Below, piece after piece: positions 9,392 through 22,039 of a stretch of 48,300 nucleotides of DNA. Source of the DNA: Candidatus Gottesmanbacteria bacterium RIFCSPHIGHO2_01_FULL_40_15 (GTDB lineage Bacteria > Patescibacteriota > Microgenomatia > 2-02-FULL-39-11); assembly GCA_001779115.1 (NCBI GenBank), contig MFJF01000001.1, positions 1 to 48,300 of the forward strand, given 5' to 3'. The position numbers were made by a program, and so were the translations under genes. Under the pieces are notes generated by a model, which did not search any database, was not told where the DNA came from, and was given only the letters and a program-made list of their open reading frames with translations. Numbering within the stretch: position 1 is the first letter of the stretch; the number at the start of each line of letters is the position of its first letter.

Positions 9392-12040
9392 TTATATCAC
9401 AAAATTAATCAGTTTGCCGGGTACAAAAACAGTCTTTTTAATTTTTTGTCCTTCCAGATATTTACTGACTCTTCCGCTTTTCCTGGCTTCCTTTTCGACT
9501 GTTTGCTGTTTTTTTGCTTCCAAACTGGCTATTTTCAGGCTGTCCCGTAACTTACCGTTAACCTGGATTATTATGACTGTCTTTTCCTCCTTCAGATACT
9601 TCGGATCAAAAGAAGGCCAAGGATGGATATGGATCGAATCCCTCCCCAACGCCAAATTATTCCACAACTCTTCCGTTATGAAGGGGGCAAACGGCGCCAA
9701 TAGTAACAGAAGGTTTTTAATATAAATTAAATCCAGATTTAACATTTGAGATTTGACATTTGATATTTCATTGACATACTCCATGATGTGGGCAATTGCC
9801 GTATTGTATTTAAGCGCGGCAATATCGTCGGTCACTTCCTTAATCGTCTTATGCATGGAACGTGTCAATGTGTCTTGAGCCCGATGATTATCGGAAGAAG
9901 TAACTCTCAATTTATTTGTGCTCGTATTCGCAAGAAATACTTCACTTTGGTTCAGGACCACCTCACTCCCGAGTCGCCAAACACGATTAAGAAAACGGTG
10001 CATCCCGGCAATTCCTGTATCCCGAAAATCTCCTCCCTGGTCAAATGGACCTAAAAACATCAAATATGTACGAAGTGTATCAGCTCCGTATTTGTTGATA
10101 TAGGCGTCGGGAATAACAACATTTCCCCTGGATTTACTCATTTTGGCTCCTTCGGCAATAATAAGTCCGTGGGCATAGAATTGCTCAAATGGTTCCTCAA
10201 AATCCAAATATCCGAAATCCTTTAAAGCCATTGTAATAAACCGGGCATACAAAAGATGCAAGACTGTATGTTCCGCGCCTCCGGTATACTGGTCAACCGG
10301 TAACCATTTTTTGGTAATATCAGGATCCCAGGGTATATTTTTACCGTCGCTTTCTTTGTTAACTGACGGATATCTTAAAAAATACCATGAACTGTCTAAA
10401 AACGTATCACAAACATCGGTTTCCCGCAGTGCCGGTCCTTTGCAATTTGGACATTTTGTTTCTACAAACGATTTGACTTTTGAAAGGGGTCCCTTACCTG
10501 TTCCCTCCGGTTTCCAGTCGGATACATCGGGAAGTTCAACAGGCAAATCTTTCTCAGCAACCGGATACCAACCGCCCTGTGCTGGAGCTGTTGAAGCACA
10601 TTTTTTACAATAAATCATCGGAATCGGCGCTCCCCAATATCTTTGTCTTGATATGCACCAGTCTCGTAAACGGTACGTAGTCACCCTCTTGCCCCACCCC
10701 TTCTCTTCTAAATAATCCATAATTTTTTCTGTCGCTTCATGAATATCCATCCCGTTTAAAAATTCCGAATTGACCATTGTTCCTTCTTCTTCCTGAACCT
10801 GTTCTTCACGGGTAATTTCCGATTTGTCTCCGTTTTTCCCGACGACAACCCTGATAATCTTCAGTTTAAATTTATTGGCAAACTGAAAATCCCTTGCGTC
10901 ATGCCCCGCAACCCCGACGACCGCTCCGGTGCCGAAATGTCCTAAAACGAAATCGGAAATAAAAATGGGCATTTTATAATCGTTCAGCTGGTTTACCGCG
11001 TAATATCCGGTAAACACTCCTGTTTTCTCTCTCCCCTCGGCAATCCTCTCCATCTCCGACTTCGCTTTAGCCCTTTTGACATATTTCTCAATCTCTGTTA
11101 GCTTTGAGCTTTGAGTTTTAAGCTTTGAATTTAGGAGGGTAGCGACGAAATCGTGTTCCGGAGCAACAACAACGAAAGTCGCACCGAAATTAGTATCCGG
11201 TCTGGTTGTAAAACAGGTAATTTTCTCTTTGGTTGGTCCGGTATCTGAAAGGATAGGATAAGTAATATTTATTCCTTCTTTTCTGCCGATCCAGTTTCTT
11301 TGGCCTACTTTTACTTTCCCGCTCCATTTGAATGACTCCTTAAAAGTATTTTGGTACAATTTCTCGCCGTAGGCTGTTATTTTGAAAAACCATTGCTCCA
11401 TCTCCCTTTTCTCAACCAAAGATTTACACCGCTCGCAGTGTCCGTCTATCACCTGCTCATCGGAAAGAACTGTCTTGCATGATGGGCAGAAATTAACCAG
11501 CGATTTTTTCCTGTATGCCAATCCGTGTTTAAACATCTGGATAAAAATCCATTGAGTCCGTTTGTAATAATTAGGATCATAAGTTTCCAGTGTATTTTCC
11601 CAGGCGAACCCGTTACCCGTAGCATGCAATTGCCGGTAAAAGTTTTTCTCACTGACAATAGCCTGCTCCTTTGGGTGCCTGCCGACCTTTAAGGCATAAT
11701 TTTCACTGTGGATCCCGAAGCCGTCCAGCCCGATCGGTTCAAAAACTTCAAAACCCTGCATTCTTTTGAAACGGCCGTAAATATCGGCACCCGTAAACGC
11801 GTAAACGTTACCCACATGAAGGCCTTCAGCCGAAGGATACGGAAACATCATCAGGTTATAAAAAGGTTTACGGGCGCGTTTTAAATCCGGCTGGTAAATT
11901 CTGACCTTCTCCCAATAGTGTTGCCATTTACCTTCAAATGACGTTGGATTAAAAGCCTGTTTACCCCGTGAATGCTTTAGCCTTTTACGGGGCCATTTTT
12001 TTTCAAACCCGGTCGGATTATATTTAATTTCTTTATCCAT
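9392..12040 (-). CDS. leuS: Leucyl-tRNA synthetase
   Basis: This class I aminoacyl-tRNA synthetase of 882 aa charges tRNA-Leu. The HIGH-type signature is FPYPSAEGLHVGN (HVGN at residues 75-78). A zinc-like cysteine cluster CPSC...CERC follows near 185-208. The CP1 editing domain carries TTRPDTNFGATF and GTGAVVGVAGHDARDF, with the editing Asp retained. KMSKS lies in GAKMSKSRGNVV near 631, followed by the anticodon-binding and C-terminal domains. Length and order fit bacterial LeuRS. Unusually, the N-terminus contains two copies of a YNPTxFExKW-type motif (residues 7-16 and 30-39); the usual enzyme has one. No good Shine-Dalgarno sequence precedes the ATG. The gene is preceded by a leader ORF and an intrinsic terminator 15 nt before the start, which suggests attenuation control. 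Confidence 0.97.
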   Translation of the reverse strand: MDKEIKYNPTGFEKKWPRKRLKHSRGKQAFNPTSFEGKWQHYWEKVRIYQPDLKRARKPFYNLMMFPYPSAEGLHVGNVYAFTGADIYGRFKRMQGFEVFEPIGLDGFGIHSENYALKVGRHPKEQAIVSEKNFYRQLHATGNGFAWENTLETYDPNYYKRTQWIFIQMFKHGLAYRKKSLVNFCPSCKTVLSDEQVIDGHCERCKSLVEKREMEQWFFKITAYGEKLYQNTFKESFKWSGKVKVGQRNWIGRKEGINITYPILSDTGPTKEKITCFTTRPDTNFGATFVVVAPEHDFVATLLNSKLKTQSSKLTEIEKYVKRAKAKSEMERIAEGREKTGVFTGYYAVNQLNDYKMPIFISDFVLGHFGTGAVVGVAGHDARDFQFANKFKLKIIRVVVGKNGDKSEITREEQVQEEEGTMVNSEFLNGMDIHEATEKIMDYLEEKGWGKRVTTYRLRDWCISRQRYWGAPIPMIYCKKCASTAPAQGGWYPVAEKDLPVELPDVSDWKPEGTGKGPLSKVKSFVETKCPNCKGPALRETDVCDTFLDSSWYFLRYPSVNKESDGKNIPWDPDITKKWLPVDQYTGGAEHTVLHLLYARFITMALKDFGYLDFEEPFEQFYAHGLIIAEGAKMSKSRGNVVIPDAYINKYGADTLRTYLMFLGPFDQGGDFRDTGIAGMHRFLNRVWRLGSEVVLNQSEVFLANTSTNKLRVTSSDNHRAQDTLTRSMHKTIKEVTDDIAALKYNTAIAHIMEYVNEISNVKSQMLNLDLIYIKNLLLLLAPFAPFITEELWNNLALGRDSIHIHPWPSFDPKYLKEEKTVIIIQVNGKLRDSLKIASLEAKKQQTVEKEARKSGRVSKYLEGQKIKKTVFVPGKLINFVI

Positions 12041-12055
12041 ATATCTCTATCATAC

Positions 12056-12082
12056 AAAAAAATCCTCTCTTGGCGAGAGGAT
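12056..12082 (-). terminator. Intrinsic terminator in the leuS leader
   Basis: On the minus strand the RNA would read AUCCUCUC, a GCCAA loop, GAGAGGAU and then a run of U. This is an 8-bp perfect stem (12082-12075 with 12069-12062) followed by U7 (12062-12056). It ends only about 15 nt before the leuS ATG, so it must be conditional if leuS is expressed from the upstream promoter. Confidence 0.75.
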
Positions 12083-12130
12083 AATATTTTTCCCACGCTC
12101 CTTCCTCGCCTTTAAGCGATTTCCGGAAGG
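12062..12130 (-). promoter_or_regulatory. Putative ribosome-mediated attenuator of leuS (alternative hairpins)
   Basis: Four pairing segments are visible in the minus-strand RNA. Segment 1, CCUUCC (12130-12125), pairs with GGAAGG (12105-12100), and UCGC (12119-12116) with GCGA (12109-12106), giving a hairpin that hides segment 2. Segment 2, GGCGAGG (12110-12104), can instead pair with UCUCGCC (12078-12072), the 5' arm and loop of the terminator (segment 3). Segment 3 with segment 4 (12069-12062) forms the terminator. So 1:2 with 3:4 means stop, and 2:3 means read-through. Leader codons 27 and 29 (both CUU, Leu) lie just before or within segment 1, and the leader stop codon lies immediately before segment 2. 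A ribosome waiting for Leu-tRNA would free segment 2; one that reaches the stop would cover it. The pairing is seen in sequence; the mechanism is inferred. Confidence 0.6.
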
Positions 12131-12213
12131 GTAAGTGAAGACTTAAAAGTCTGAAATCCCATATCGGCCCGATTTAATCGGGACTGGTATTGGGATGATA
12201 ATAATCTTTTCAT
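12112..12213 (-). CDS. Putative leuS leader peptide, 33 aa
   Basis: A short ORF begins ATG AAA AGA TTA TTA (MKRLL) and ends with SSLTLPEIA and TAA, 71 nt before leuS. It has five Leu codons in 33: TTA at 4, 5 and 13, and CTT at 27 and 29. It begins about 10 nt after a TATAAA -10 box, in the same near-leaderless arrangement as other genes in the window, and its stop codon sits exactly before the proposed antiterminator segment. The peptide itself has no recognisable domain. I read it as a regulatory leader peptide; the alternatives are a small real protein or a chance ORF. Confidence 0.55.
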   Translation of the reverse strand: MKRLLSSQYQSRLNRADMGFQTFKSSLTLPEIA

Positions 12214-12223
12214 TTTGATCTAT

Positions 12224-12251
12224 TTTATATCCTCTGCAAGGAAAAAATCAA
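12224..12251 (-). promoter_or_regulatory. Candidate promoter of the leuS leader transcript
   Basis: On the minus strand TTGATT (12251-12246) and TATAAA (12229-12224) are spaced by 16 nt. The predicted transcription start falls about 4 nt before the leader ATG at 12213. Confidence 0.5.
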
Positions 12252-12360: not shown

Positions 12361-12921
12361 ATGTTCACAAAAACCGCCAAACACTCAATAATGCTTGTTA
12401 TCGCTCTTTTATTGACTTATTTTTGGATAAATCACGCTATTTTATCAAATTTTTCCCTCCAGTTAACCGCTTTCCTGATAATCTTCCTCATTTTGGCACA
12501 CCGTTTACTAAAAACACAAAATTTTCTCTTAACCGAATCGGTTATCTCAGGGATTAGCGTTGTTCTTATTACCGCTTCAACAGGCGGTCTTGCCAGCCCT
12601 TTTTTCTTTCTCAATCATTTCCTCCTCTTTGAGCTTTCACTCCTCTTGGAACCCTCAATTGTTATTACTTTAACACTATCACTAATGACCCTTTATATAT
12701 TCAGTCATCGTGTTGCGCCTTCATTTCATGACTTAACTCTTCTTCTCTCGTTTTTATTCATGACACCTATAGCCTATTTTACAGGTAATATTTATAACAG
12801 AATCAAAAACCAGAAAAAAGAAATAAAAGTTCTTTCGGAAAAAATTGAAAATCTGGAAGAAGAGCTGACTCACGAAGAATTGGAGCGCCTCCGCCGGGAA
12901 CATTTTGCTCTGCCTGCCTGA
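12361..12921 (+). CDS. Multi-pass membrane protein with C-terminal coiled coil (sensor-like, no kinase)
   Basis: The protein has 186 aa. Five or six hydrophobic helices span residues 8-145, followed by a charged helix (about 148-182: KNQKKEIKVLSEKIENLEEE) that looks like a coiled coil. The block STGGLASPFFFLNHFLLFE resembles the TGGxxSPF segment of the multi-pass input domain of some sensor histidine kinases, but the protein ends after the coiled coil and no kinase or output domain follows. It could be a stand-alone sensor, a membrane tether or a remnant. The ATG at 12361 sits 8 nt after a -10 box without a Shine-Dalgarno sequence, so the message is probably leaderless. Confidence 0.65.
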   Translation: MFTKTAKHSIMLVIALLLTYFWINHAILSNFSLQLTAFLIIFLILAHRLLKTQNFLLTESVISGISVVLITASTGGLASPFFFLNHFLLFELSLLLEPSIVITLTLSLMTLYIFSHRVAPSFHDLTLLLSFLFMTPIAYFTGNIYNRIKNQKKEIKVLSEKIENLEEELTHEELERLRREHFALPA

Positions 12922-19900: not shown

Positions 19901-22039
19901 TCAGTACCATATCAAAAAGATATAATTGGCATCGTTTCTGCAAATCCTTATTCTGAAATACTCTCCGAAGGCGTCTTTGAAAATGATGAAAACCCTGTTC
20001 CCGTCGCCCTGGCCGGACGTGTTCCTGTCAAATTCTCTTCGGAAAATGGTCAGGTAGAAAAAGGTGATCCGGTAACTTCGGGAAGCATTCCCGGATTCGC
20101 CATGAAAGCAAATGAAACCGGGCCGGTTGTCGGTAAAGCATTGGAAAGTTTTAATTCTGACTATTCCCAACTATCCTGTCCTGATGGCACTCCCTCCCGT
20201 ATAAAATGCGGTGAAATTTTGGTTTTGCTCAATTTGAGCTTCTATATTAAAACCCTTTCCCAGGATGAACTCAGCCGGTATACCCTGATAGCTGGTGGGT
20301 ACTCTGGCCAAAGCACTCTCAATTCCTTGAAGGAAGTTGCTGCCGGTGTTATGGACTCTGCCGCCGGTGTACTCTTTTCCCTCAAAGCTTCTTTTGAATC
20401 ACTTACTGCCGGGGATATTGAAGCGGAAAAACTTACTTCGGCCATTATTGAGTCGGATGAAATTTTAACGCGAAACTTAAAAACTGATGTTATTTCACCA
20501 CTTTCTGATAATGGGGAAGTAATAATTGAAGGCAATTTGGCAGTTTATAACGAAAATGGCACCATTTCAGCAATACTTGACCGTCAGGGTAATCTTAACA
20601 CTCAAGGTAATATCACCGCCGGTTATGCTACTTTTAGATCACTCCTTGAGGCTGAAAATGCTTCCGTTGCCGGATTATTAAACACAGCCTCACTGAGAGT
20701 GGAAAATGCTACTGTTACCGGAACTCTCCACGCTGACGATATCCGTTCAACCCGTCTTGATAATCTGCAAAACTCATTCGGCAGTCTTTTGGAAAAATTA
20801 AATGAAATTGCCACAGCATCCGCCGCTCTGCCTGCCCCTTCTCCAAAAACGGGCGTACCGGCACCGACCGTGTATCTTTCTCCGACTATAAGTCCGCCAT
20901 CCGATACGGCATTTCCCAAAGAGACGGGATTTTCAACGCTCTCCGCCTCATTGCTTGTTCAATCTGATAAGTCCGGTTCGGACCGGTATATTTCCGACCT
21001 TGTCACAGCTTCTCTGCAAAATACGGATAATCTGCTTACGTTAAACCAAAGAATTGAGGATTTCCTGAAAAATTCTTCCTCAGTGCTTGACGATACTTAT
21101 AAGAAGTTTCCCTTATCGGATTCACATTCTTCCATAAATGTGGATTCACCGGTTGAAATTGACCCCGCTATGCTGAAAAACCTCACCGTTACCGGAGAAT
21201 CTTCTCTTGCCGATACATCAATAGCCGGCCAGCTTCTGATTGACGGATCCTTAATATTGGAAAATAGCAGTATAAAAGCTTTAGAAACTTTATATCTTTC
21301 TTCCGAAAAAACAATTGATCTTATGGGAGGAAAAGTTTTAGTTGACGAAAACGGCAATCTAACCGTTAAAGGTGAAATACTGGCTGAAAAAGGAATAAAA
21401 ACCAATACCGTTAGCGCCTCCGGCAACCTTAATATTAATTTGGCCCCGTTGCCTTCTGAAACGCCTGCAGATTCTTCTTCCGGGCAATTTGATTCATCAC
21501 CCATAAAGGATCAATCTGGTCAGGCTGCTTCGGAAAGAATAGGAGGCTTTGGAAAGCTTCTTATTAATAATTCTTCAATTACGGTGGCAGCCATTGACGG
21601 ACAGGGAAATGCCAAGTTCTCGGGTGATCTTCAAATTGATAAAAATGCCAGTGTTAAAGGCGCCTTAAGCACCTCGAAATTATATCTGCAAAATTCGCAG
21701 GATAGTTCCGGTAATCCTGAAACTATATCCGCGGCCGAAAATTTTCTGCAAAATAATATTAATGCTCCCGGCCTTAATGCGTCGGGTTCGATAGGTTCGG
21801 CAGTCATTCCCGCTTCCAACCGGGAATTCGTCATCTTCACCGACAGTCTTTCCCAAAACTCGCTTATCTACCTGACTATTACTTCAAAGGTACAAAATAG
21901 AACATTATATCTGGCAAAACAAAAGTCCTGTCAGGAGGATACCGCTGCCGATTCTGTTTCCTGCCGGCCTTACTTTACTGTTGCGCTCGATATTCCTTAT
22001 GAGAAAGATATTTCATTCAATTGGTGGCTGGTCAATTAA
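16910..22039 (+). CDS. Giant surface protein: recombinase-type SAM-like domain, TM anchor, collagen-like and phage-appendage-like exterior (1709 aa)
   Basis: Residues 1-100 are Lys-rich and helical. About 115-205 matches the N-terminal SAM-like core-binding domain of tyrosine recombinases ([40 protein letters not shown]). No catalytic recombinase domain follows. A membrane helix lies at about 254-274, after which the protein should be outside. About 290-400 has [16 protein letters not shown]...[19 protein letters not shown], a module common in large surface proteins. About 585-700 looks LamG-like. Residues 773-844 are 24 Gly-X-Y triplets. About 950-1085 ([52 protein letters not shown]) resembles phage neck/tail appendage or Peptidase_G2-like domains. 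The rest is beta-repeat rich, ending in a domain with [15 protein letters not shown] and FNWWLVN. It is likely a fibrous adhesin or surface stalk with a cytoplasmic, possibly DNA-binding, foot. Confidence 0.8.
19226..19441 (+). repeat. Collagen-like Gly-X-Y repeat tract (24 triplets)
   Basis: The tract encodes [12 protein letters not shown] and so on, dominated by GPTG, GSTG and GATG triplets without interruption. Thr in the Y position is typical of bacterial collagen-like proteins, which form triple helices without hydroxyproline. The tract is GC-richer than its surroundings and opens a long spurious frame (19089-19526). Confidence 0.9.

Follow-up and report, generated by a model that had tools for sequence, protein, structure and literature searches.

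The window, that is, the whole 48,300-nt stretch of DNA analysed here, carries on its minus strand the leuS gene for leucyl-tRNA synthetase (9392-12040, 882 aa), identified in a profile search by a match to TIGR00396 at 868 bits and by the leucyl editing domain PF13603. An intergenic region of 320 nt separates leuS from a plus-strand ORF of 186 aa (12361-12921), and as this neighbor is divergent from leuS, the terminator at 12082-12056 described below would be usable only by a transcript begun inside the intergenic region. A gene near leuS shows a weak match, under the cut-off of the model, to a CPR pilus protein, which agrees with a CPR lineage, as do the small sizes (0.5-1.7 Mb) of the class genomes compared and the Patescibacteria groups among the named leuS matches.

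The leader elements that the initial annotation had proposed are all present on the minus strand of the intergenic region. The promoter of the leader, P1, consists of TTGATT (12251-12246) and TATAAA (12229-12224), the latter overlapping TAAAAT (12227-12222), and the same pattern, TTGATT...TATAAAATAGAT, is found in the related genome G011. Downstream lies a leader peptide ORF of 33 codons (12112-12213, stop codon TAA at 12114-12112), which has related leaders in eight other genomes. Its product, MKRLLSSQYQSRLNRADMGFQTFKSSLTLPEIA, contains leucine residues at positions 4, 5, 13, 27 and 29, of which Leu27 (CTT, 12135-12133) and Leu29 (CTT, 12129-12127) form the sensing region (12127-12135) as judged from simulated ribosome positions. 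In computed folds, segment 1 (12116-12130) pairs with segment 2, GGCGAGGAAGG (12100-12110), located directly 3′ of the leader stop codon, through CCUUCC (12130-12125) with GGAAGG (12105-12100) and UCGC with GCGA. The GGCGAGG stretch of segment 2 (12110-12104) has an alternative partner in the terminator (5′ arm and loop), and both masked folding and co-variation point to this segment 2:3 helix as the antiterminator. Segments 3 and 4 form the intrinsic terminator itself, an 8-bp hairpin AUCCUCUC-GCCAA-GAGAGGAU (12062-12082) followed by a U7 tract (12056-12062), the first U of which also closes the stem; the tract ends 15 nt upstream of the leuS ATG at 12040. Right after it, 8 nt upstream of that ATG, the sequence contains a candidate second promoter, P2, with the extended -10 element TGTATGAT (12049-12054). 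The element is identical in G011, and -10-like boxes are also found after the terminator in G018, G005, G138 and G270. The frequent occurrence of such a box between the terminator and leuS suggests a basal promoter past the switch, and P2 may serve basal leaderless expression of leuS.

Compared with 200 dinucleotide shuffles, the leader folds more stably than every one of them (z = -3.6), and 12143-12062 more stably than 199 of 200 (z = -3.0). When the 5′ end was trimmed to mimic a ribosome, the full set of segments folded into the protector hairpin and the terminator (-28.6 kcal/mol), masking of segment 1 led to the antiterminator (-14.9 kcal/mol), and additional masking of segment 2 restored the terminator (-12.1 kcal/mol). 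The alternative pairing in the window sequence by itself is not significant (p = 0.14), its significance being derived from the relatives. In simulations with the ribosome edge set at an assumed 13 nt past the start of the A-site codon, the probability of the terminator is 0.96 with the ribosome at codons 1-25 and 32-33, and 0.57-0.71 at codons 26-28, of which codon 27 (Leu) gives 0.57. Values under 0.1 are confined to codons 29-31, with 0.07 for Leu29. Leu29 is therefore the predicted sensor and Leu27 a partial one, and Pro30 or Glu31 in the A site would release the terminator as well. The proposal that stalling at leucine codons leads to read-through is accordingly borne out by the simulation for Leu29 and in part for Leu27, while Leu4, Leu5 and Leu13 are predicted to be inert.

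Among 124 leuS upstream regions with a readable start from the same class, the same device is present in nine, the window included, and these are spread over seven families. Besides the window genome (G000), the leaders are MKRFLSFLLLNFA in G011, MKFLSLLLLQVA in G005, MKFLFSLLDLNLLLLEK in G018, MTKDLLLFPKNP in G035, MNIFTQLILLETLK in G196, MQNKSLLTSLLLKKHI in G138, MKKFLLTTVLLLMK in G034 and MFIKKALLLLN in G270; the G005 leader was missed by the scan rule given below and was added by hand. Two further scan matches upstream of leuS, in G033 and G163, proved not to be Leu leaders and were left out. The eight leaders other than that of the window have 11-17 codons and 3-8 leucine residues. In all nine the ORF starts 6-12 nt past a -10 box, the antiterminator strand begins at the leader stop codon, and a U-tailed terminator lies 22-33 nt from the stop; the Leu cluster is mostly 9-24 nt upstream of the stop codon, most commonly at -15. 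The relatives thus retain the architecture, the leucine codons near the stop, the position of the stop codon and the alternative pairing, in agreement with the earlier proposal of classical leader-peptide attenuation and its expectation of what an alignment of relatives would reveal. The distribution is patchy, as the device is missing from six of the nine genomes in the family of the window whose upstream DNA could be read. No convincing Leu leader was found among 80 leuS loci of the named genome contigs.

The nine leaders are so divergent that their MAFFT alignment does not permit pairs to be counted by column, and co-variation was therefore assessed by comparing cognate with non-cognate pairing. 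While the leader sequences diverge widely, the 2:3 complementarity is retained, with -15.2 kcal/mol for cognate partners against -10.2 kcal/mol for exchanged ones (permutation p = 5e-5). The 2:3 pairing is also stronger than in shuffled spacers (Fisher 1.3e-9, scan matches at leuS plus G005). The 1:2 protector helix is seen in the folds, but its co-variation across the leuS leaders is weak (p = 0.011), so that of the helices expected to co-vary, 2:3 and 3:4 are better supported than 1:2. The simulated switch is likewise shared. The terminator probability is 0.92-0.99 in the untranslated leaders, except for 0.27 in G270, it is 0.91-0.99 with the ribosome at the stop codon, and with the most effective Leu codon of the cluster in the A site it drops to at most 0.08 in eight of the nine, with 0.43 in G138 (Fisher 3e-8 against shuffled spacers).

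The amino acid specificity of such leaders was addressed with a scan whose criteria disregarded the encoded residues, and which required a terminator, an ATG-initiated ORF of 6-40 codons with its stop codon 5-70 nt upstream of the terminator, and a -10 box 4-12 nt upstream of the leader ATG. In the 124 leuS, 77 ileS and 73 pheS upstream regions it retrieved 10, 8 and 15 leaders, respectively, 33 in total compared to 0.75 per shuffled scan, and their content of Leu, Ile and Phe residues follows the identity of the downstream gene (chi-square 73, p = 4e-15). When three or more identical residues among five are required, there are seven Leu leaders at leuS, seven Ile leaders at ileS and six Phe leaders at pheS; a cluster of the cognate amino acid is present in 20 of the 33 leaders and a non-cognate cluster in none, with 0.125 per scan in the shuffles. 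The leader of the window itself falls short of this strict rule. Examples are MLNQIIIIK at ileS in G138 and MSRANKFFFFFFNLAQAGDGSVV at pheS in G017, and the 0.8-Mb genome G018 has Leu, Ile and Phe leaders together with the Trp leader MVGKIKEMILSWWGKLTGK. The latter, with two adjacent Trp codons and a terminator, is found upstream of tRNA-Trp (CCA anticodon) and trpS (L479, G018:C5), where a simulated stall at the Trp codons did not release the terminator. Ile-run leaders, MLNQIIIIK among them, occur upstream of ileS at loci L259, L269, L411, L412, L416, L420 and L265; the simple antiterminator switch of the leuS type is absent from them, and past their stop codon there is an independent hairpin. 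In the window's genome, a Phe-rich ORF MMGQTENFFSFYFTPELVGLVCLVKR is followed by a terminator and then by pheS (L288/L351, G000:C13, about 21600-21850), a probable Phe attenuator with its antiterminator strand within the ORF. No leader with a terminator was found at the valS and thrS loci of the nine genomes.

The same upstream regions are informative about translation initiation. A TANNNT motif peaks sharply 6-7 nt upstream of the start codon in the 124 leuS, 77 ileS and 73 pheS regions and Shine-Dalgarno-like motifs are nearly absent, from which it follows that messages of the class probably start at or beside the start codon and that leaderless messages are probably the rule for these three genes. 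The leader ORF in the window begins at leaderless spacing from its -10 box, as the initial annotation had suggested when it considered an attenuator on a leaderless message, and the P1 transcript would be expected to start 0-4 nt upstream of the leader ATG. For the leuS leaders found by the scan, the -10 box is mostly 6-8 nt upstream of the ATG, and 12 nt in G196.

Taken together, the leuS leader appears to be a ribosome-mediated transcription attenuator which senses charged tRNA-Leu, a reading to which we assign a probability of about 0.87. It is supported by the sequence elements, their conservation, the 2:3 co-variation and the specificity for the cognate amino acid, and from these we infer the transcription starts, the ribosome stalling, the read-through and the role of P2. 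The locus has a leader ORF with cognate codons, an intrinsic terminator between this ORF and the gene and, according to computed folding and co-variation, an antiterminator partner exposed by a cognate stall and covered at the stop codon, each a feature of ribosome-mediated attenuators. In the proposed mechanism, RNA polymerase would initiate at P1, at or no more than about 4 nt from the leader ATG, and a ribosome would translate the leader. When Leu-tRNA is scarce, the ribosome would stall with its A site at Leu29, or at Leu27, so that segment 1 is covered. Segment 2 would then be free to pair with the terminator's 5′ arm and loop, and the polymerase would continue into leuS. When Leu-tRNA is plentiful, it would reach the stop codon and cover segment 2, and the terminator would form; the same outcome would be expected in an untranslated leader, where segments 1 and 2 would pair with each other. 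P2, located beyond the terminator, would supply basal leaderless leuS mRNA.

The window copy has a peculiarity which bears on whether it is still functional. A dispersed palindromic repeat of about 60 nt with the core CCCGATTAAATCGGG is inserted in frame within the leader ORF (12134-12194), which accounts for its length of 33 codons. Two more copies are present in the same genome (G000:C31:15396-15451 and G000:C7:35285-35339), and across the window's family there are related copies, with numerous occurrences of the core. The repeat is absent from the leaders of G011 and G005, and the ends of the ORF flanking it, MKRLLSS... and ...SLTLPEIA, correspond to MKRFLS... and ...SFLLLNFA in G011. With only two Leu codons left near the stop, against 3-5 within 24 nt of it in the other leuS leaders, the window copy is poorer in Leu than any of the other eight, and together with the repeat this raises the possibility that it might be decaying. 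It could then be a relic, an attenuator that the insertion and the disappearance of the Leu run have disabled; leuS would in that case be driven by P2, in line with the -10-like box between the terminator and the gene. However, the insertion has preserved the frame, the antiterminator and the terminator are both intact, the simulated switch still operates at Leu29, and the terminator stem has undergone a compensatory change relative to G011, from CCUCCC:GGGAGG to CCUCUC:GAGAGG. The copy therefore looks maintained and such a relic is unlikely; it is a weak, repeat-interrupted member of the leuS leader set.

Two other explanations are very improbable. That a constitutive terminator, such as one ending a small RNA, should lie behind a chance ORF with no regulation involved would agree with the frequency at which short ORFs arise by chance and with the lack of significance of the alternative pairing in the window alone, but it is hardly credible given the excess of real leaders over shuffled scans at leuS, ileS and pheS, the cognate amino acid in 20 of 20 clustered leaders and the 2:3 co-variation. 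In a T-box riboswitch, uncharged tRNA-Leu would bind the leader and stabilize the antiterminator without any need for leader translation. T-box-like motifs with CTCGTCC-type terminators are indeed seen at leuS of Firmicutes in the named set, and T-box-like sequences are found elsewhere in the class, yet in the window no match to RF00230 was obtained at the gathering threshold or at E<=5, the leader lacks the UGGNACC motif, and what is conserved is a translated ORF with cognate codons beside the switch, which makes a T-box at this locus very improbable. The Rfam search as a whole, at gathering and relaxed thresholds, returned nothing in the window. The T-box-like sequences of the class, such as AAGGTGGTACCGTGA, lie upstream of synthetase genes at L264 (G035 ileS), L282 (G035 pheS), L308 (G000 serS) and L462 (G123 trpS), the first three of them under the Rfam cut-off or unmatched, and the class seems to have T-boxes as well as leader attenuators.

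Attenuation of leuS by charged tRNA-Leu would also fit the metabolism of the cell. No HMGL-like protein was found in the window's genome, which is reported as 100% complete, so leuA (isopropylmalate synthase) is missing and leucine cannot be made by the usual route; the switch would therefore signal the external supply of leucine. More broadly, we lean, with some reservation, towards the view that throughout this class of small-genome, probably CPR bacteria, whose cells would be unable to make these amino acids, cognate leader-peptide attenuators on leaderless messages generally set the levels of synthetases (Leu, Ile, Phe and Trp), acting next to T-boxes and replacing the attenuators of biosynthesis. 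Very little is known about gene regulation in uncultured CPR bacteria, and here the sequence by itself points to the signal, leucine charging, as well as to the gene and the mechanism. Such a switch further implies ribosomes that initiate at the extreme 5′ end of the message and a coupling of transcription and translation.

The leuS leader shares with the trpL and pheL/pheST attenuators of Proteobacteria the cognate codons near the stop, which in trpL are about 12-18 nt upstream of it, the three alternative helices as predicted by folding and the U-tailed terminator. Leaders of the E. coli trpL/pheL type use Shine-Dalgarno sites and most of them control biosynthesis, whereas the gene in the window encodes a tRNA synthetase and its initiation looks leaderless. 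With T-box riboswitches (RF00230) it has in common the control of synthetase genes by charging state via a terminator, but not the tRNA-binding RNA features. Similar in architecture are the classical leuS attenuators predicted in Streptomyces avermitilis and S. coelicolor (Seliverstov 2005, PMC1262725), which likewise combine a Leu leader ORF, an antiterminator and a terminator upstream of leuS; these belong to Actinobacteria, and the word leaderless is absent from that paper. What is new is consequently the CPR setting. A literature search with few subscription journals in its scope found no paper on attenuation for either Patescibacteria or the candidate phyla radiation, and the window leuS attenuator is probably the first CPR member of its kind. 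Leader ORFs that begin, or are discussed as beginning, at the 5′ end of the mRNA are those of trpL in Sinorhizobium meliloti (PMC7298713) and ilvBNC in Corynebacterium glutamicum (PMC11857589), which share the leaderless leader ORF with the window, although both regulate biosynthetic operons and come from other phyla.
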